35,999 nucleotides of DNA, from assembly GCA_001787205.1 (NCBI GenBank), contig MFWB01000012.1, forward strand, positions 44,172-80,170, written 5' to 3'. The stretch is from Candidatus Nomurabacteria bacterium RIFOXYB1_FULL_39_16 (GTDB taxonomy: Bacteria; Patescibacteriota; Minisyncoccia; Phycocordibacterales; UBA9973). Below the pieces are notes generated by a model that made no database searches, was not told the origin of the DNA, and worked only from the letters and a program-made list of their open reading frames with translations. Below, piece after piece: positions 6,701 to 35,704 of this stretch. Position numbers and translations under genes: made by a program. The first letter of the stretch is position 1. Every line of letters begins with the position of its first letter.

Positions 6701-8333
6701 AGTCTGTGAACACTGTCAACAAAACTTCACAATATCAGATGAAGAGCTAGCTTTGTATAAAAAAGTCGGTTTAAAAGTTCCTGGGTTGTGTTGTGAATGT
6801 CGGTGGAAAAAATATCTTTCGTTTGCTCCTTTTGGTAAATTTAGAAAAGGAAAATCTGATCTCTCGGGGGAAAATTTTATTACAGTTTTACCAGTCAATG
6901 CTCGTTTCCCGATCTATGCTTCTCACGAATGGTGGGGAGACGGCTGGGATCCAATATCTTTTGGACAGGAGTATAATTCGCAAAAATCGTTTTTTACACA
7001 GTTGAAAGAATTACAGGAAAAGGTTCCTCGTCCACACCAAGGTGGCAAAAATAACTTTAACTGTGACTGGTGTGAGGATGTATGGGAGTCAAAAAATTGC
7101 TATTTATCAAGAGCCCTTTTTAAATGTGAAAATCTTAGTTATGGTTACCGAGTTTTAACAAGTAAAGATTCTTTTGATTTAGTTTACTGTTTTGATCTTC
7201 AGAGGTCTTATAATTGTCTTTTTTGCCACAATTCTTTTAATTTAAATTTTTCCGAAAATTCCAAAGATTGTGTTGATTCTAACTTTCTTTTTGATTGTCG
7301 CAATTGCCAAAATTGTACTATGAGCTGGAATCTTAGGAATAAACGTTATTGTATAAGAAATGTGCAATATACTAAAGAAGAGTATGAAAAAGAACTGGCA
7401 AAGTTTAATTTTGGTTCATACAAAAATATAGTTATATTAAAGGAAGAATTTAAAAGAATTTTAAAAAATGAAGCAGTTCATCGAGAAAATTTTAATATTA
7501 AAACTACTAATTCTACAGGGAATTATATGACTAATTGCGACAAATGCATAAATGTTTTTTCCTGGGAAAATTCGCAAAATTGTCAGAATTGTATAAGGGG
7601 TTTAAACTCTAAAGATTCTATTGATCAAGCTTTTACCTGGAATACTGAAAATTCTGGCAATAACGGAACTGTCGATGGTGGTTACCAAATAAAACACTCC
7701 GCGCATTCTGTGGGTAGGTATTCTGAGTATATAGATAACTGTCTTGAGGTAGAATATTGTTTTGGGTGTGTTGGTTTAAGAAAAAAGAAATATTGTATTT
7801 TAAACAAACAATACACAAAAGAAGAATATGAAAAATTGAAAGCAAAAATTGTTTTAGATATGGGGGAAGAATATGGAGAATTTTTTCCATATTCTATGGG
7901 TATTTGCGACTATAATTTTTCGGCAAGTATACTTTATTTTCCCCAAACAACTAAAGAAGAAATATTGAGGGAAGGTGGCTATTGGTCCGAAGAGGATTTT
8001 TCTTCTGAAGATGGAATTTCATCTCTAGAACTCCCCGATGCAATTAAGGACACTGATTTGGGTATTTGTAATCAGGCCTTGATTTGCCCACAAACTCATT
8101 ATAGATTTAATATCTCACAATCAGAATTTGAATTTCATAAAAACAATAATTTTGCTTTGCCACGCGAACATTTTGACAGGAGAATGTTAGAACCCGCGCG
8201 CAAGATGGTAGTATCAAAAAGTTATCCATATAAATGTTTTTATTGTCAAAAGGATATTGAGGCGTATTATTTACCGGAATGGCATTATCAAAAAATAGCC
8301 TGTGAGGAATGCTATAAACAAAATATTGCCTAA
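6675..8333 (+). CDS. Cys-rich zinc-ribbon/solenoid protein, paralog 1
   Basis: Function unknown. A 552-residue protein, one of four related ones in the window. It has an N-terminal ribbon (C11, C14, C40, C42 region), a linker with WWGDGWDPISFGQEY, then two modules rich in Asn-Cys and Ser-Lys-Asp-Cys steps that look like short beta-solenoid turns. Each module is closed by a related motif: YCIRNVQYTKEEYEKE from residue 225 and YCILNKQYTKEEYEKL from residue 373. A further domain has EEYGEFFPYS and FPQTTKEE. The C-terminal ribbon is C521-x2-C524, C543-x2-C546. The second N-terminal ribbon present in paralog 2 has lost its cysteines. No signal peptide or membrane segment is seen, so it is probably cytoplasmic. 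Its start lies inside the end of grpE, suggesting coupled translation. Confidence 0.85.
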   Translation: MNTKNPPTRVCEHCQQNFTISDEELALYKKVGLKVPGLCCECRWKKYLSFAPFGKFRKGKSDLSGENFITVLPVNARFPIYASHEWWGDGWDPISFGQEYNSQKSFFTQLKELQEKVPRPHQGGKNNFNCDWCEDVWESKNCYLSRALFKCENLSYGYRVLTSKDSFDLVYCFDLQRSYNCLFCHNSFNLNFSENSKDCVDSNFLFDCRNCQNCTMSWNLRNKRYCIRNVQYTKEEYEKELAKFNFGSYKNIVILKEEFKRILKNEAVHRENFNIKTTNSTGNYMTNCDKCINVFSWENSQNCQNCIRGLNSKDSIDQAFTWNTENSGNNGTVDGGYQIKHSAHSVGRYSEYIDNCLEVEYCFGCVGLRKKKYCILNKQYTKEEYEKLKAKIVLDMGEEYGEFFPYSMGICDYNFSASILYFPQTTKEEILREGGYWSEEDFSSEDGISSLELPDAIKDTDLGICNQALICPQTHYRFNISQSEFEFHKNNNFALPREHFDRRMLEPARKMVVSKSYPYKCFYCQKDIEAYYLPEWHYQKIACEECYKQNIA

Positions 8334-8373
8334 TACATATATCAGCGATAGCGTAAATATGTAAATTAAAATT

Positions 8374-10095
8374 ATGGAGTATAAACAAGAAACAAAAAAC
8401 TGCCAGAATTGCAAACAAGACTTTACGATAGAGCCGGATGATTTTAATTTTTACGAAAAAATAAAAGTCCCCCCACCTACTTTTTGTCCTGAGTGTAGAT
8501 TTCAAAGAAGAATGGTCTGGCGCAACGAAAGAACTCTTTTTAAAAGAAAATGTGATTTATGTCAGAAAAATATTATTGCTATGTATCGTGAATCCGTGCC
8601 CTTTCCGGTGTATTGTCGGGAGTGCTGGTATGGAGACGGATGGGATGCGACATCTTTCGGCAGAGAATACGATTTTAATAAAACATTTTTTGAACAGTAT
8701 AAGGAACTAATGGATCTAGTACCACGTTTCGCTATTTGGCATAGAGATGCAATTAATTGTCCATATTCAAACTTAGTACGGGAGTCAAAAAATGTTTATC
8801 TTTCAGCTTCAATACTTGGTTCAGAAAATGTTTTTTACTCTAAAACTATTGATAATTCCTTTAATGTTTTTGATAGTTATAATCTCAAAAATTCTCATGA
8901 ATGCTATGAAAACATAGACAGCGACAGAAATTACAATTCACAGTATCTTTTTTTATCCCGAAACTGTGTTGATTGTTGTTATTTGATTGATTGTACCAAT
9001 TGCAGTAATTGTTTTATGTCTTCCAATTTACGCAACAAGCAATTTTATGTAAGGAACAAGAGATACACAAAGGAGGGCTATTTAAAAGAAATAGAGAAGC
9101 TTAATCTTGGCAGTAAAATTATACGAAGTAATCTTATAGATGAATTCCAAACTCTGCGTGCAAACACAATTTATCGCTATGCGGATATCACCCAATCTAA
9201 CAACTCTACGGGAAATGAACTTACAAACACCAAAAATTGTAAAAAATGTTTTAGTGTTTATGATGCCGAAAATTTAAAATACTGCCATCGCTTTTTAAAA
9301 GCAAAAGATTGTTTTGACTCTGACCATGGGGGAATCAATACTGAACTTTTATATGAATGTAACACAGGAGCCAGGAATGATTATAATGTTAAATTTTCTT
9401 ATTCTCCAATAGATCAAGTCAGAGACGTAGACTACACGGATTCTTGCATGTCATCGAAAAATCTTTTTGGATGTGTTGGGATGAAAAATCAAGAAAATGT
9501 AATTTTAAACAAAGTTTATTCAAAAGAAGAATTTGAGATACTACGAGAGCAAATTATAAAACAAATGGATGATGCGCCATTTATAGACAAAGCGGGCAGA
9601 GTTTATAGATATGGAGAATTTTTTCCAATTGAGCTTTCTCCCTGGGCTTATAATGAAACCCTTTCCCAGGAATTCTTTCCTCTCTCTAAAGAGGAAGTAG
9701 AAAAAAACGGTTATTCTTGGTGTGTTCCGGAAGTAAAAAATTTTGAAATTACAATTCAAGCCGAAAACATAAAGGATAATATAGATGAAGTAGACGAAGG
9801 TATCCTGAAAGAAGTTTTGGGATGCGCTCATAAAGGCAAATGTGATCATCAGTGCAGTGTTGCTTTTCGCATCACTGAAACCGAATTTAAATTTTATAAA
9901 AAACACAATATCCCCATACCTGATAAATGCGCAAATTGTAGATACGGAGAGCGTTTTATGCAGGTACCTCTGCCCAGGCTCTACAAACGTCAGTGTATGA
10001 AAAAGGGTTGCTCTAATGAGTTTGAGACTCCTTATGCTTCAGACAGACCCGAAATAATCTATTGTGAGAGGTGTTATCAGCAGGAAATATATTAG
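8374..10095 (+). CDS. Cys-rich zinc-ribbon/solenoid protein, paralog 2
   Basis: Function unknown; 573 residues. This is the copy with the fullest set of metal ligands: ribbon 1 (C10, C13, C38, C41), ribbon 2 (C60, C63, C81, C84), then the conserved WYGDGWDATSFGREYDFNKTFF linker. Two Cys/Asn-rich modules are closed by FYVRNKRYTKEGYLKE (from about residue 224) and NVILNKVYSKEEFEIL (from 375, where the usual YC is replaced). They are followed by YRYGEFFPIELS, an ILKEVLGC segment and CANCRYGER, and the C-terminal ribbon ends YCERCYQQEIY. It lies 40 bases after paralog 1, so the two form a tandem pair. The N-terminal codons are close to paralog 4 at the DNA level. Cytoplasmic location is inferred from the lack of a signal. 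Confidence 0.85.
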   Translation: MEYKQETKNCQNCKQDFTIEPDDFNFYEKIKVPPPTFCPECRFQRRMVWRNERTLFKRKCDLCQKNIIAMYRESVPFPVYCRECWYGDGWDATSFGREYDFNKTFFEQYKELMDLVPRFAIWHRDAINCPYSNLVRESKNVYLSASILGSENVFYSKTIDNSFNVFDSYNLKNSHECYENIDSDRNYNSQYLFLSRNCVDCCYLIDCTNCSNCFMSSNLRNKQFYVRNKRYTKEGYLKEIEKLNLGSKIIRSNLIDEFQTLRANTIYRYADITQSNNSTGNELTNTKNCKKCFSVYDAENLKYCHRFLKAKDCFDSDHGGINTELLYECNTGARNDYNVKFSYSPIDQVRDVDYTDSCMSSKNLFGCVGMKNQENVILNKVYSKEEFEILREQIIKQMDDAPFIDKAGRVYRYGEFFPIELSPWAYNETLSQEFFPLSKEEVEKNGYSWCVPEVKNFEITIQAENIKDNIDEVDEGILKEVLGCAHKGKCDHQCSVAFRITETEFKFYKKHNIPIPDKCANCRYGERFMQVPLPRLYKRQCMKKGCSNEFETPYASDRPEIIYCERCYQQEIY

Positions 10096-10104
10096 TTATC
10101 CACA
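10096..10104 (+). promoter_or_regulatory. Perfect DnaA-box sequence TTATCCACA
   Basis: The consensus 9-mer lies directly after the stop codon of the second Cys-rich gene in the 91-base gap before cutA. It stands alone: no cluster of boxes, AT-rich unwinding region or dnaA gene is nearby. An imperfect hairpin (CCCGTAC with GTATGGG) follows. It may be a stray match or a titration or regulatory site. Confidence 0.4.
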
Positions 10105-15203: not shown

Positions 15204-16952
15204 ATGGAAGTTAAAACACCAAAAACTGACGCCTTGATTAATGAAATTTTAGAAAATCTCGTTCCACACGAGCGTACTTGTAAGTGGAAAGGGGAGCACT
15301 CATATTGTGAAGGAAAATTTGAAATAACAGAAGAAGATATTACTTTTTTAAAGATGCTTCGTGTGCCGACTCCAAATTATTGCCCAACTTGTAGACGGAT
15401 GAGGCGTCTTGTTCATATGAATATGATTCGTCTTTTTAAAATACCTTGTAAGGCGCCAAATCATAATGAAAGTATGATTTCTATTTTGCCCGAAGAATGC
15501 CCTTTCCCCGTATATGATTATTTATATTTTATTTCTGATGAATTTGACCCATTTTCTTTTGGAGTTAAGTATGAGGAAGGAATGGACCCCATGGAAACAC
15601 TTTTTAATTTACGTAAAAAGTTTCCAATGCCCTCTTTTTTAAATCGTGGTCTTTCAAGTATAAATAGTGACTATTCAAACGGGGGAAAAGACAACAAAAA
15701 TTGTTATTACGCGATGGCTTGTTATAAAGCGGAGGACGTCTGGTATTCCAGCATGGTAAACAGAAGCAGGAGCATTATGGATTCTAATGATATAGAAGAT
15801 TCTGAGTTGTTGTACGGGGGTTTATCTTCAGATCATATTTATAAATCTTCCTTTATTTATTTTTCTAATAATTGCACGGATAGTTTTCTTCTTTTTGATT
15901 GTAAAAATTGTGATAGCTGTTTCGGATGTATCAATCTACGCAACAAAAAATACTGTGTTTGGAATGAACAATTATCAAAAGAAGACTACGAAACTTTTAT
16001 TGAATCCATAAATCCCATATCAATAAAATCGCTAGCGCTTTATAAAGAAAAATTTTGGAATGTTGTCGCTAGTTTGCCAATGAATGCTTCCCATAATGTC
16101 GGATCAGAAAACGCAGTGGGTGTTCATATAATGCGCAGTCGCAATGTGTTTGACATTGGGGACTCAGACAATAGTGAACATATAAGGCACGCAGACGGAG
16201 CTATGTCTCACAAAGATTCTATGGATTTTCTTTTTTCCGGAGGAAATTCCAGTAAACTTTATGGAACTATAAATATTGGCTCACAATCGAGCGGGGTAAG
16301 GTTTTCTGTATCTTCTAAATTTTGTGTTGATTGTGAGTTTGTGTTTAATTCCAAGAATCTTACAAATTGTTTTATGTGTTTTGGGTTACAGGACAAATCA
16401 TATTGTATTTTAAATGTACAATATCAACCCGAAGAATATTTTGAGATTGTCGATAAAATAAAATTTGAAATGATAAAAAAGGGGGAATATGAAGATCCGC
16501 TCGGTCTTGAATTTTCCGCACAGGCCTATAATTTTTCCATGGCGCAAATCGCTTATCCTTTAAACAATGCTGAGATAATAAAATTGGGTGGTTATGTTGC
16601 CAAAGAATCTGAAACCAATGTTGGTGACACTGAAAAATTAACAGTGAATGAATTGCCAGAGACCATTACGGAAGCAACTGATGAGATATTAAAGAAGGCT
16701 ATATGTTGTGAAGTCACGGGGCGTCCGTTTAGGATTGTCAGTTCAGAATTGGAATTTTATAGAAGAATGAAATTACCATTACCGACTCTACACCCATCTT
16801 ATCGTATGGAAACACTGTTTCAACTAATTCATATAGGGAAGAAATATGAGACTACTTGTGTTAAATGCGGTAAAGCTATAAATTCTATTTTTGACCCCAG
16901 GTCAAATTTCATTCTGTATTGTGAAAAGTGTTATCAGCAGGAAGTTTACTAA
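15204..16952 (+). CDS. Cys-rich zinc-ribbon/solenoid protein, paralog 3
   Basis: Function unknown; 582 residues. The most divergent of the four copies. The N-terminal ribbon is C26-x8-C35 with C60-x2-C63 and is preceded by about 25 extra residues. The second ribbon keeps only a C82 and C99 pair. Two modules with repeated Asn-Cys and Asp-Ser steps are closed by YCVWNEQLSKEDYETF (from residue 250) and YCILNVQYQPEEYFEI (from residue 400). The C-terminal ribbon is C552-x2-C555, C573-x2-C576, ending YCEKCYQQEVY. The spacing between the two closing motifs, 150 residues, is the same as in the other copies. It starts at the base after the stop of one secretion-type ATPase and is followed by the promoter of a second, which suggests a functional link but does not prove one. 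Confidence 0.85.
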   Translation: MEVKTPKTDALINEILENLVPHERTCKWKGEHSYCEGKFEITEEDITFLKMLRVPTPNYCPTCRRMRRLVHMNMIRLFKIPCKAPNHNESMISILPEECPFPVYDYLYFISDEFDPFSFGVKYEEGMDPMETLFNLRKKFPMPSFLNRGLSSINSDYSNGGKDNKNCYYAMACYKAEDVWYSSMVNRSRSIMDSNDIEDSELLYGGLSSDHIYKSSFIYFSNNCTDSFLLFDCKNCDSCFGCINLRNKKYCVWNEQLSKEDYETFIESINPISIKSLALYKEKFWNVVASLPMNASHNVGSENAVGVHIMRSRNVFDIGDSDNSEHIRHADGAMSHKDSMDFLFSGGNSSKLYGTINIGSQSSGVRFSVSSKFCVDCEFVFNSKNLTNCFMCFGLQDKSYCILNVQYQPEEYFEIVDKIKFEMIKKGEYEDPLGLEFSAQAYNFSMAQIAYPLNNAEIIKLGGYVAKESETNVGDTEKLTVNELPETITEATDEILKKAICCEVTGRPFRIVSSELEFYRRMKLPLPTLHPSYRMETLFQLIHIGKKYETTCVKCGKAINSIFDPRSNFILYCEKCYQQEVY

Positions 16953-29538: not shown

Positions 29539-29868
29539 ATGAACCACATAATTTCTGGTAGGGTGATGAGGGGCGATGGGTATGGTGGGAAGCTTGGATT
29601 TCCTACTGTAAATCTTGAACTGGAGAAAGAAGAAATTCTGCCGGCGGGGGTTTATGCTGGTATAGTAATTTTAGAAGATAAAGAATACCGAGCCGGAATC
29701 GCGGTTGACCAAAATAATAAAATAGATGCGCATCTTTTAGGATACAGTGGGGACGCTTATGGGAAAAAAGTAATTTTTAAAATAAATAAATTTTTAAGAG
29801 AGTATAGAAAGTTTGATACTGAAGAAGAATTAATTTCTCAAATTAAAAAAGATTTAGACAAATGTTAA
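29539..29868 (+). CDS. Stand-alone riboflavin kinase
   Basis: A 109-residue protein equal to the C-terminal flavokinase domain of RibF: HIISGRVMRGDGYGGKLGFPTVNLEL (nucleotide/riboflavin loop with the GFPTVN signature), LPAGVYAGIVI, and the C-terminal GKKVIFKINKFLREYRKFDTEEELISQIKKD. It would phosphorylate riboflavin to FMN. The N-terminal FAD-synthetase half of bacterial RibF is missing. At the position of the conserved catalytic Glu the sequence reads KIDAHLLGY, an Asp in place of Glu, so activity is uncertain. It starts 5 bases after aspS and overlaps the EamA gene by 7 bases. Confidence 0.85.
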   Translation: MNHIISGRVMRGDGYGGKLGFPTVNLELEKEEILPAGVYAGIVILEDKEYRAGIAVDQNNKIDAHLLGYSGDAYGKKVIFKINKFLREYRKFDTEEELISQIKKDLDKC

Positions 29869-30842
29869 ATACAGCGTTAAAAAATTATACCGGATCTATC
29901 TTGATAATCATTGCGGCGTTGTTGTGGGCCTTCGACGGGCTCATCCGCCAACATCTTTACACTCTTCCGCCCATAATCATAATTTTCTTTGAGCATTTAA
30001 TCGGTTTGATTATTCTAGCTCCGTTCGTTCTTCGCTATGTACTTAGGACCAAACTTGCCTCACGTGAATGGTGGCTTATTGTTTTAGTGTCAGCCTTAAG
30101 TGGTCTGTTGGGCACACTTTGGTTTACCACAGCGCTCGGCAAGGTGCATTTCATTTCTATTTCAGTGGTATTTCTTTTACAGAAACTCCAGCCCCTCTTC
30201 GCCATTTCTTCGGCTCGTGTTTTTTTGAAAGAAAAATTAGACAGTAGATATATAAAATGGGCTTTACTTGCAGTTGTTTCCGCGTATTTTGTGACTTTTC
30301 CGAATGGTGTAGTAAATTTACAAACAGGCGAGGGGACAATCATCGCAGCTCTTTACGCTCTCGGCGCAGCCTTTGCTTGGGGCTCGTCTACCACGTTCTC
30401 AAAGATGCTTTTAGGAAAAGTGGACCCCGTTAGAGACCGCGAGGGCTCGCAGCGGCCCCCTGTCTCTAATGGGGTGGATTTCAAAGTTAGCACTTTTTAT
30501 AGATTTTTGTTTACGGTATTAATTTCTTTGCCGGTGTTGCTACTGTTTGGTTCCGGTGCCAATGCTGGCTTTATTGTTCCGACTCTTTCGCAACTTGGTT
30601 TCTTGTTGGTTATCGCTTTATCTACCGGTATGGTTGCGCTCCTTATTTATTACAAAGGACTCGCGAAAACCCCGGTGCACATTTCCACCATTTTAGAATT
30701 AACTTTTCCGTTTATTGCCATTTTGTTGGATTTTGTCGTTAACCACACAGTTTTATCTGTTTCTCAGTGGATAGCGGCATTTGTTCTGGTATTTGCGATT
30801 TATAAAATAGCCCGATTGCGCGAGGACATAGCAGGTATATAA
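29862..30842 (+). CDS. EamA/DMT-family transporter
   Basis: A 326-residue membrane protein with ten predicted helices in two five-helix halves, typical of the drug/metabolite transporter superfamily. The first half includes ILIIIAALLWAFDGLIRQ and LLGTLWFTTALGKVHFISISVVFLLQKLQPLFAI; the second begins ALYALGAAFAWGSSTTFSKMLLG. Substrate unknown. Between KMLLGK and VDFKVSTFYRFLF, in a loop, 18 extra residues (about 187-204) are encoded by a palindromic element flanked by GTGGA repeats. Removing it restores a normal loop. Confidence 0.88.
   Translation: MLNTALKNYTGSILIIIAALLWAFDGLIRQHLYTLPPIIIIFFEHLIGLIILAPFVLRYVLRTKLASREWWLIVLVSALSGLLGTLWFTTALGKVHFISISVVFLLQKLQPLFAISSARVFLKEKLDSRYIKWALLAVVSAYFVTFPNGVVNLQTGEGTIIAALYALGAAFAWGSSTTFSKMLLGKVDPVRDREGSQRPPVSNGVDFKVSTFYRFLFTVLISLPVLLLFGSGANAGFIVPTLSQLGFLLVIALSTGMVALLIYYKGLAKTPVHISTILELTFPFIAILLDFVVNHTVLSVSQWIAAFVLVFAIYKIARLREDIAGI
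30420..30478 (+). mobile_element. Palindromic in-frame insertion element in the EamA gene
   Basis: GTGGA occurs at 30420-30424 and again at 30474-30478, exactly 54 bases (18 codons) apart. The inserted part starts CCCCGTTAGAGAC and ends GTCTCTAATGGGG, an inverted repeat with one G-T mismatch, and contains an inner GCGAGGGCTCGC palindrome. The duplicated VD at the protein level and the kept reading frame point to insertion with a short target duplication. Confidence 0.7.
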
Positions 30843-33357: not shown

Positions 33358-33910
33358 TTTAGAACAGAAAATTGAAGCAATACTCTTTTTTAAGGGCGAA
33401 CCTATTTCTAGAAAAAAACTCTCAGAAGTTTTGGGAGTCGGACAAATAGAAATAAACGAAGGAATAGAAAAACTCAAAGAAAATTTGCAGAATAGGGGAA
33501 TAGTGCTTGTTGAAAATGATAATGATATTACTTTAGGCACCGCGCCGGAGCTTTCCAAGCTTATTGAAAATTTACAAAAAGAAGAATTAAATAAAGAACT
33601 TTCAAAAGCTGCTTTAGAGACATTATCCATCATTCTTTATAAAAATGGCGTGAGTCGAGCCGAGATTGACTATATCCGAGGGGTAAACTCTAGCTTTACT
33701 CTGCGCGCGTTGTCCATCCGCGGATTGATAGAAAAAACCACAGACTCGAAAGACAACAGACGTTTTATCTACAATCCAAGCTTTGAATTATTGTCTTATA
33801 TGGGAGTGAAATCCACGGCAGAATTGCCGGACTGGGAAGAGGTAAATAATTCTGTAAATGTAGCGGTAAAAAATATGGAAGCGGAAAAGAGAGAAGGAGA
33901 TGGAATATAA
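33347..33910 (+). CDS. scpB: Segregation and condensation protein ScpB
   Basis: A 187-residue ScpB with two winged helices: LEQKIEAILFFKGEPISRKKLSEVLGV at the N-terminus and LSKAALETLSIILYKNGVSRAEIDYIRGVNSSFTLRALSIRGLIEK in the second. It dimerises and binds the ScpA middle region in the SMC complex. Its last 11 bases overlap the start of the fourth Cys-rich gene. Confidence 0.95.
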   Translation: MNNNLEQKIEAILFFKGEPISRKKLSEVLGVGQIEINEGIEKLKENLQNRGIVLVENDNDITLGTAPELSKLIENLQKEELNKELSKAALETLSIILYKNGVSRAEIDYIRGVNSSFTLRALSIRGLIEKTTDSKDNRRFIYNPSFELLSYMGVKSTAELPDWEEVNNSVNVAVKNMEAEKREGDGI

Positions 33911-35666
33911 AAGTGAAAATAAAATATGTCAAAATTGCAAACAAGACTTCACCATAGAGCCGGAAGATTTTAATTTTTATGAAAAGATAAAGGTTCCTTC
34001 GCCCACGTTCTGTCCGCTTTGTCGTGCACAAAGGAGGCTTGTTTTCAGAAATGAAAGAAAGCTTTTTAAAGTTAAAGATGCTTTTACGGGGGAAAGTATT
34101 TTTTCTACTTACCCACAAGAAAGCGGAAAAAAAATTATTACCAGAGAAGAATGGTTTGGGGATGATTGGGATGCCATGGAATACGGGCAAGATTATGATT
34201 TCTCCAGTTCTTTTTTGAAACAATTTTTTGAACTCGAAAAACAAATACCCATGTATGGTTTGAATGCAAAAATGATGTCAAATAGTCCATATTCTGCGAA
34301 TGCTACTAATTTGAAAAATTGCTACCTTTGTTTTAGTTCGAATAATTCACAAGATTGTATGTATAGTAGCGCTATAGATTTTAGTAAAGATTGTGTAGAT
34401 AATTCTCATGTAAATCACTCTGAAAGATCTTACGAAAATTTTTGGTTACAGAATTGTTACCAGTGCCATTTTTCTATTAGGTCTATGGAATCGAGAAATT
34501 TGTGGTTCTGTCGGGGCTGTGTGGGGTGCAATGATTGTTTTGGAAGTGCAAATTTGAGAAAGGCATCTTATTGTATTTTTAATAAACAATATACGAAAGA
34601 AGAATATAAAAAGGAAATTAAAAAATTAAATCTAGACACTATTTCTGGACTAAAGGAAGCAAGAGAAAAAGCTAGAGCCTTTTGGTATACTCAACCCGCT
34701 AAATACCACCAAGGTTTAAAGAACTTAGATTGCACGGGTTCTTATGTAACTCATAGTAAAAATGTAAACGATAGTTATTTAATTAGAGAAAGTGAAAATC
34801 TACGATATTGTCAGTATTTACAAGTTCCAGAAAGTAAAGATTGTTATGACATAAATAATTGGGGAGCAAATACAGAACTTGGCTATGAGACAATGGAATG
34901 TGGTGATAATTCTTATAATAATAAATTTTCCAGAAATTGTTGGCCTGCTTGTAAAAACCTTGAGTACTGTATGCATATGTTTAGCTCGTCTGATTGTTTT
35001 GGTTGTGTTGGACTTAAGAAAAAGCAGTATTGCATTTTAAATAAACAATACACAAAAGAAGAATATTATGATTTGGTAAAAAAAATTAAGGAACATATGG
35101 ATGAGATGCCTTATGTTGATTCACAAGGACTCATTTATAAATATGGAGAATTCTTCCCGATAGAATTTTCCCAACTTGGGTATAATAATACTGTTGCAAT
35201 TCAACATTTTCCCTTAACAGAAAAAGAAGCAAAAGAAAAAGGGTATTTATGGATAAATATACCCCATGGTGAATACAAAATAACTATAAAAGTTGGGAAA
35301 TTACCAGATTCAATTTTTGATGTTACAGACAATATTTTAAAAGAAGTCATAGAATGTGAAAATTGTAAAAAAGCCTATAAAATTTTAGAAAATGAACTGA
35401 TTTTTTTAAAAAAAGAAAAACTTCCTTTACCGACAATGTGTTATGACTGTAGGTACGAGAGAAGGATTAGTGACAGATTAAAAATTCAATTGTACAAAAG
35501 ATATTGTATGTGTAACGGAGAAAAAGATGTTACTGGAATTTATAAAAATACAGTAAAACACATACACGGAGATGAACCATGTGGTGAAGAATTTAAAACC
35601 GGTTATCCACCCGAACATCCAGAAATAGTCTACTGCGAAAAGTGTTATCAGCAGGAGGTGTATTAG
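33900..35666 (+). CDS. Cys-rich zinc-ribbon/solenoid protein, paralog 4
   Basis: Function unknown; 588 residues, closest to paralog 2. It has an N-terminal ribbon (C10, C13, C38, C41) with the shared FTIEPEDFNFYEKIKVPSPTF core. Ribbon 2 has lost its cysteines but keeps the surrounding pattern up to EEWFGDDWDAMEYGQDYDF. Two Cys/Asn-rich modules are closed by YCIFNKQYTKEEYKKE (from residue 224) and YCILNKQYTKEEYYDL (from residue 377). Then come YKYGEFFPIEFSQLGYNNTV, ILKEVIECENCKKAYKI, a MCYDCRYERR ribbon half and a C-terminal ribbon ending YCEKCYQQEVY. The start lies within the end of scpB; AAGGAG touches the ATG, too close to act as a Shine-Dalgarno. The coding sequence looks more AT-rich than scpA/scpB. 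Confidence 0.85.
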   Translation: MEYKSENKICQNCKQDFTIEPEDFNFYEKIKVPSPTFCPLCRAQRRLVFRNERKLFKVKDAFTGESIFSTYPQESGKKIITREEWFGDDWDAMEYGQDYDFSSSFLKQFFELEKQIPMYGLNAKMMSNSPYSANATNLKNCYLCFSSNNSQDCMYSSAIDFSKDCVDNSHVNHSERSYENFWLQNCYQCHFSIRSMESRNLWFCRGCVGCNDCFGSANLRKASYCIFNKQYTKEEYKKEIKKLNLDTISGLKEAREKARAFWYTQPAKYHQGLKNLDCTGSYVTHSKNVNDSYLIRESENLRYCQYLQVPESKDCYDINNWGANTELGYETMECGDNSYNNKFSRNCWPACKNLEYCMHMFSSSDCFGCVGLKKKQYCILNKQYTKEEYYDLVKKIKEHMDEMPYVDSQGLIYKYGEFFPIEFSQLGYNNTVAIQHFPLTEKEAKEKGYLWINIPHGEYKITIKVGKLPDSIFDVTDNILKEVIECENCKKAYKILENELIFLKKEKLPLPTMCYDCRYERRISDRLKIQLYKRYCMCNGEKDVTGIYKNTVKHIHGDEPCGEEFKTGYPPEHPEIVYCEKCYQQEVY

Positions 35667-35704
35667 GTACTAAATTCTGCTATCGCAGAAAATGATACCT
35701 TTTA
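35665..35704. terminator. Hairpin between paralog 4 and the carboxypeptidase gene
   Basis: TTCTGC (35675-35680) pairs with GCAGAA (35685-35690), and AGGTA (35665-35669) with TACCT (35696-35700) beyond an internal loop; TTTT follows. It lies between convergent genes and may serve both. Confidence 0.6.

Follow-up and report, generated by a model that had tools for sequence, protein, structure and literature searches.

The window analysed here, a stretch of 35,999 nucleotides of a Candidatus Nomurabacteria genome, contains a gene for a transporter of the EamA/DMT family (match to Pfam EamA, PF00892, with E 2.6e-27), and within the reading frame of this gene lies a GC-rich palindromic element (Table 1). 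The pentanucleotide GTGGA occurs at 30420-30424 and again at 30474-30478, and the unit 30425-30478 is 54 nt long. The host protein reads VD-PVRDREGSQRPPVSNG-VD at this place, with 18 additional residues, where PVRDREGSQRPPVSNG is the translation of the 50-nt element itself. The arms are 13 bp long with one G/T mismatch, which would be a G.U pair in RNA; the right arm, one mismatch away from the left arm, has AACGGG in most copies of the family described below. A sequence-only reading of this DNA had reported the direct repeats, the 54-base unit, the inverted repeats, the preserved frame and the 18 added residues, and all of them are present as reported.

Table 1. Positions of the EamA gene and of the parts of the element inserted in it
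Feature	Position	Strand	Evidence
EamA/DMT-family transporter gene, 326 aa, host of the insertion	29862..30842	+	open reading frame; Pfam EamA PF00892; 23 orthologues
Left copy of target duplication, TGGA, in V-D codons	30421..30424	+	sequence; empty sites of orthologues; 4-bp rule of the family
Palindromic element, 50 nt, 13-bp arms and GC-rich inner hairpin	30425..30474	+	sequence; fold z; cores in other genomes
Left terminal inverted repeat, CCCCGTTAGAGAC	30425..30437	+	sequence; arm common to the class-wide family
Right terminal inverted repeat, GTCTCTAATGGGG	30462..30474	+	sequence; family copies
Right copy of target duplication, TGGA	30475..30478	+	sequence

The G+C content of the element is 70%, compared with 43% for the EamA gene. 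Its hairpin folds with z = -3.4 as DNA and -4.1 as RNA, and none of 200 dinucleotide shuffles was equally stable; the stem is thus well beyond chance. In an AlphaFold model built from a 24-sequence alignment, helices span residues 156-184 and 207-229 and pLDDT falls below 50 for residues 187-202, so that the insert is predicted to occupy a disordered loop between helices 6 and 7; a loop is also where the sequence-only reading had placed it. The same reading took GTGGA for the flanking direct repeat. This repeat is indeed present, but the outer G of its right-hand copy is the terminal base of the element, paired with C at 30425, and the statistics of the family (see below) fix the actual target duplication at 4 bp, TGGA, not at 5 bp. 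Elsewhere in the window (7269-10098, 15885-16951, 33900-35669) are related genes for Cys-rich proteins with internal repeats (units of ~76 nt; families D1-D9).

State of the insertion site in EamA orthologues

Orthologues of the EamA gene, 23 in all, were found in Nomurabacteria and in neighbouring CPR lineages. The sequence-only reading had proposed to look among them for an empty site, and this is what 22 of the 23 have: their proteins read GK-VDFKV or similar without the additional residues, many of the sites read AAAGTGGATTTCAAA or AAAGTGGACTTCAAA, and the flanks of the window element, joined without it, give the same sequence. All orthologues carrying the residues would have refuted that reading, and they do not carry them.

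The remaining orthologue (locus L003, genome G017) is filled, with a different element at exactly the same TGGA. Its outer arms and TGGA duplication are as in the window; its 69-nt core is unrelated. In a gene tree from which the inserts were left out, and in which most branches are weak, the window gene and the L003 gene are joined in 0% of 200 bootstrap trees. We accordingly rejected one inherited insertion common to both genes, on the unrelated cores and on this tree, weakly resolved as it is. Judging from the sequences, either the site may have been filled twice, or an old copy common to both may have had its core replaced. Similarly, orthologues carrying different groups of Rickettsia palindromic elements (RPEs) at one locus have been described (PMC3767692). 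Viral contigs were also searched, and had neither a relative of EamA nor a copy of the element.

A class-wide family with common ends

Copies of the family have the ends Y-CCCGTTAGA(A/G)... and ...TCTAACGGG-R, around a variable core of ~30-50 nt that mostly forms one or two inner hairpins. In a class-wide sample searched with a flank-free pattern, perfect arms CCCGTTAGA...TCTAACGGG were found in 111 of 383 genomes, belonging to 96 genera; the same pattern reversed, used as a control, had no matches in the 383 genomes. The largest numbers of exact copies per genome are 20 (G538), 17 (G560) and 13 (G587). All genomes are draft assemblies, many of them from metagenomes. Recognition relied on exact arms and passes over mutated ones, so that the counts are lower bounds. 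Many genomes have a single exact copy, few for an element that is active, and this counts against mobility.

The core of the window element is single in its own genome, and the other copies that the sequence-only reading proposed to look for are found elsewhere, with related copies in more than 100 genomes and near-identical cores at L057, L061, L121 and L124. Within the genus, copies lie in genes for LeuRS (a tandem pair), a Sua5/YciO-like protein, ribosomal protein L25 and, in two genomes, a D-Ala ligase-like protein; in the order, other families have cores of 48 nt that are nearly identical. G562 and G587 each have near-identical or identical copies at several separate places, and G624 (L295) has three identical 100-nt copies within 1.6 kb. 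At L283 (G589:C6:42300-43000) one palindromic element is nested inside another.

We collected 182 distinct copies with their flanks. The searches in the genus and the order required TGG on the right and were left out of the flank statistics, which use only the 137 copies from flank-free searches (loci L157 onward). Of these 137, 71 have four bases exactly duplicated at the target (shuffled mean 7.5, maximum 15), compared with 0-3 copies at shifted alignments. All 71 duplications read YNNR, as do 23.6% of nearby tetranucleotides; the first base is T in 82% and C in 18%. TTGA/TCAA, TTCA/TGAA and TTTA/TAAA are common sites, and TGGA, the one used in the window, is a minor one. The base before CCCG is complementary to the base after CGGG in 133 of 137 copies, nearly always as C/G or T/A. 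A duplication of 5 bp was rejected, as the fifth base agrees only about half the time; a 2-bp duplication with longer ends was rejected as well, there being no case in which the middle bases are equal and the first unequal. Counting against mobility, about half of the 137 copies have no exact duplication. It was never seen in a subfamily with CTTG[TC] on the left (L166, L171, L201, L204, L210, L220), in which GGGACTTGTCCC would fold as a hairpin by itself.

Copies inside genes and at start codons

About half of the GC-rich copies (64 of 129) lie within open reading frames. Where a long open frame extends to either side (36 copies), the reading is PVR...SNG in 31, PLE...TG in five and the third frame, closed by stops in both arms, in none. 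The length is a multiple of three in 36 of 36 copies in open frames, a result partly forced by the selection of copies, and in 27 of 65 outside them; we set this aside as proof of adaptation, as counting long frames selects for such lengths. Homology shows the host genes to be real: alignments with their homologues stop at the insert and begin again beyond it. SecA of G830 aligns to 1tf2 at residues 2-267 and 290-435, with the insert at 268-290 unmatched; ArgRS of G587 aligns to 3fnr at 109-251 and 318-596, and the gap contains two different elements. Homologues of both proteins lack the insert. Pfam domains spanning inserts include L25, SecA_SW, Pyr_redox_2, GNAT, SMC_N, G6PD_N and a glycosyltransferase, and more copies are found in LeuRS, the GyrA C-terminal domain, FtsK, GH1 and YchF proteins. 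The suggestion that the element is adapted to insert in genes is thus borne out only in part: half of the GC-rich copies do lie in frames, but the other half lie outside, and retention in frame is largely to be expected from selection against disrupted genes.

Two other peculiarities of synthetases were observed in genome G021. LeuRS at L055 has a NUDIX domain at residues 190-285, with the editing domain on one side and the remainder of the catalytic part on the other, and the N-terminus of AspRS at L138 (contig C15) has an extra DTHSTGSGQEE compared with its relatives, possibly from a second family of in-frame repeats.

AT-rich hairpins with the same arms, mostly 56-67 nt long (longer variants exist), sit behind a TATAAT-like box and end exactly at a start codon (L049, L060-L089, L127-L156; for example G000:C12:36325-36399). 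All 21 parsed loci run directly into a frame of at least 61 codons. A covariance model places such leaders in 26 of 31 genus genomes, with up to 66 in one genome and 11 in that of the window; Rfam has no match for them. Genes following them include those for S14, L19, S21 and S9, typA, gatC, the AspRS gene and dnaA. ATGGA flanks one subgroup on either side, a duplicated start codon; a second subgroup has ACTTG to the left, together with an RNA-only G.U pair. Duplications of ATGAA or ATGGA arise at start codons because ATG followed by a purine supplies YNNR sites (TGRA, TGGA). The loop contains GGG in 18 of 20 hairpins, where 2 are expected, and this GGG could pair with the left arm in place of the start-codon arm. 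Among AspRS genes adjoining EamA, only that of L013 has the leader hairpin, and the others look leaderless; in the window (28184) and in L002-L024, a -10-like box lies ~7-10 nt before the AspRS start codon.

The sequences suggest, short of proof, that AT-rich insertions can act as expression switches. A wider proposal, possible but on present evidence somewhat doubtful, would join both classes in one mobile family: GC-rich copies would add peptides to essential proteins, and AT-rich copies, landing at leaderless start codons and duplicating them, would install a leader in which the CCCGUUAG arm has two alternative partners, an inner CUAGCGGG and the start-codon arm: a transposable expression switch moved by an enzyme outside the DDE_Tnp_1 and Y1 families.

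Probable mode of movement and relation to known systems

Dispersed near-identical copies, exact empty sites, a duplication of fixed length and a symmetric target are the marks of insertion, by cutting or by copying, at a staggered break, as practised by DNA transposons. The dispersed copies, the empty sites and the fixed-length duplication with its symmetric preference lead us to infer this kind of insertion for the family, and the window hairpin is very probably one copy of a family of tiny mobile DNA elements spread through many CPR genomes. The sequence-only reading had called it a miniature mobile element, and the empty sites in EamA, the relatives in other genomes and the target duplication of the family all speak for that. 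A recombinase of the host, or one borne by phage, would recognise the ends in trans and cut the target with a 4-bp stagger; copies breaking genes would be lost, and those in harmless loops would stay. The window copy, landing at TGGA within the V-D codons, would have lengthened EamA by 54 nt, or 18 residues. It counts against mobility that no transposase could be tied to the family: DDE_Tnp_1 (PF01609) was found in none of 16 carrier genomes, with search controls that worked. An autonomous copy, that is, a long arm pair with a transposase frame, was present neither in G684 and G589, the two genomes with complete lists of arm positions, nor in L282; a 715-bp candidate at G589:C6:25245-25960 was rejected, being two separate elements with no transposase frame between them.

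A different mover would be a RAYT, a transposase of the Y1 HUH type, pasting a hairpin with a fixed tetranucleotide, as in REP/REPIN elements, beside a target tetranucleotide without duplicating it. The hairpin architecture fits, Y1_Tnp genes of this kind are present in 32 of 40 genus genomes (six in that of the window), and every one of the first copies had TGGA or TGGG as its right flank, resembling a tag. That tag is an artefact of the TGG required by the first search patterns, so a fixed GTGGA/TGGA was rejected: in flank-free searches the tetranucleotide varies (TTGA, TTCA, TTTA, CTCG, TGCG, CATG and others). HUH chemistry is not known to duplicate its target, and such insertion would not produce the duplication on both sides of 71 of 137 copies. 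Linkage to RAYT genes was also rejected, as 29 of 30 Y1 loci have no full family ends within 1.5 kb; one has them, and two others have weak single-arm matches. We regard movement by RAYT as improbable. The hairpin might instead have expanded locally in EamA, through slippage during replication or a switch of template. Palindromes bounded by short direct repeats are classic slippage products and can also be lost precisely, and tandem and nested copies do occur (LeuRS in L055; L283). The same arms and cores, however, recur in unrelated genes and families, a spread that local slippage cannot yield; dispersal refutes this origin, to which we give practically no credence, and slippage may account at most for loss and tandem duplication.

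The arms could, finally, belong primarily to an RNA hairpin of 5' leaders, a cis-regulatory element of which the coding copies are stray descendants. In its favour are the 21 of 21 parsed AT-rich loci that end at start codons, the RNA-only G.U pair kept in 13 of these 21, the loop GGG as a possible partner of the CCCG arm, and the up to 66 covariance-model matches per genome in the genus. The GC-rich class, on the other hand, has Watson-Crick arms and YNNR duplications at sites unrelated to start codons, and only one of the 19 orthologous AspRS leaders read has the hairpin, so the leaders, too, look inserted. Taken as an origin for the whole family it is rather unlikely, and a leader function is more the role of one branch than an alternative to mobility.

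On the best reading, that of mobility, the family consists of non-autonomous, MITE-like coding palindromes, which work in the manner of RPEs without being counted among them. It apparently has not been described: no account of such elements in CPR bacteria was found in the open-access journal papers searched, and Rfam has no match at the element in the window or in its relatives at the gathering or a relaxed threshold. MITEs have in common with it terminal inverted repeats, a short duplication of fixed length, dispersed copies and no coding capacity. The conserved repeats YCCCGTTAGA / TCTAACGGGR in 111 of 383 genomes, the 4-bp duplication and the empty sites in relatives (EamA orthologues, homologues of SecA and ArgRS) make up all the defining marks of MITEs except a known parent element; no parent insertion sequence was found, DDE_Tnp_1 being absent from the carriers examined. 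The family also differs from MITEs in being smaller than usual and in having conserved arms around fast-changing cores. REP/REPIN elements with RAYT (PMC2817692, PMC3116915) are likewise short dispersed hairpins, and the genus does have Y1 transposases. The CPR family nevertheless falls outside that group, as its flanking tetranucleotide is duplicated and varies in place of a constant tag, its copies are frequent within genes, and full ends accompany only the single RAYT locus mentioned above. The GC clusters and double-hairpin elements of fungal mitochondria are tiny, GC-rich, mobile and sometimes located within coding sequence. Compared by anatomy only, these single or double hairpins resemble the CPR family, but they belong to another domain of life and have other ends.

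RPEs are small palindromic repeats of ~100-150 bp, found between genes and, in frame, inside unrelated housekeeping genes that stay intact (PMC10969869, PMC3767692; Ogata et al. 2000/2002, summarised there). The parallel with them drawn by the sequence-only reading holds as far as behaviour goes: here, too, palindromes are inserted in frame within protein-coding genes. The CPR copies are mostly shorter (46-77 bp), occur in Nomurabacteria/Patescibacteria and not in Rickettsiales, have a YNNR 4-bp duplication and strict YCCCGTTAGA ends, and have relatives that form 5'-leader hairpins. In-frame coding palindromes have so far been regarded as peculiar to Rickettsia; the same phenomenon would now appear independently, and class-wide, in the essential proteins of streamlined CPR genomes, in a family whose ends are clear, whose duplication has an exact length and whose targets follow a strict rule. 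The movement of such elements and their tolerance by proteins become testable, with the end sequence as bait for the enzyme and with many natural insertions at hand. Annotation and structure prediction of CPR proteins should recognise PVR...SNG peptides as insertions, and CPR gene regulation is concerned through the relatives that form the 5' leaders of many genes. Likened by what they do, RPEs are the closest relatives of the CPR family.
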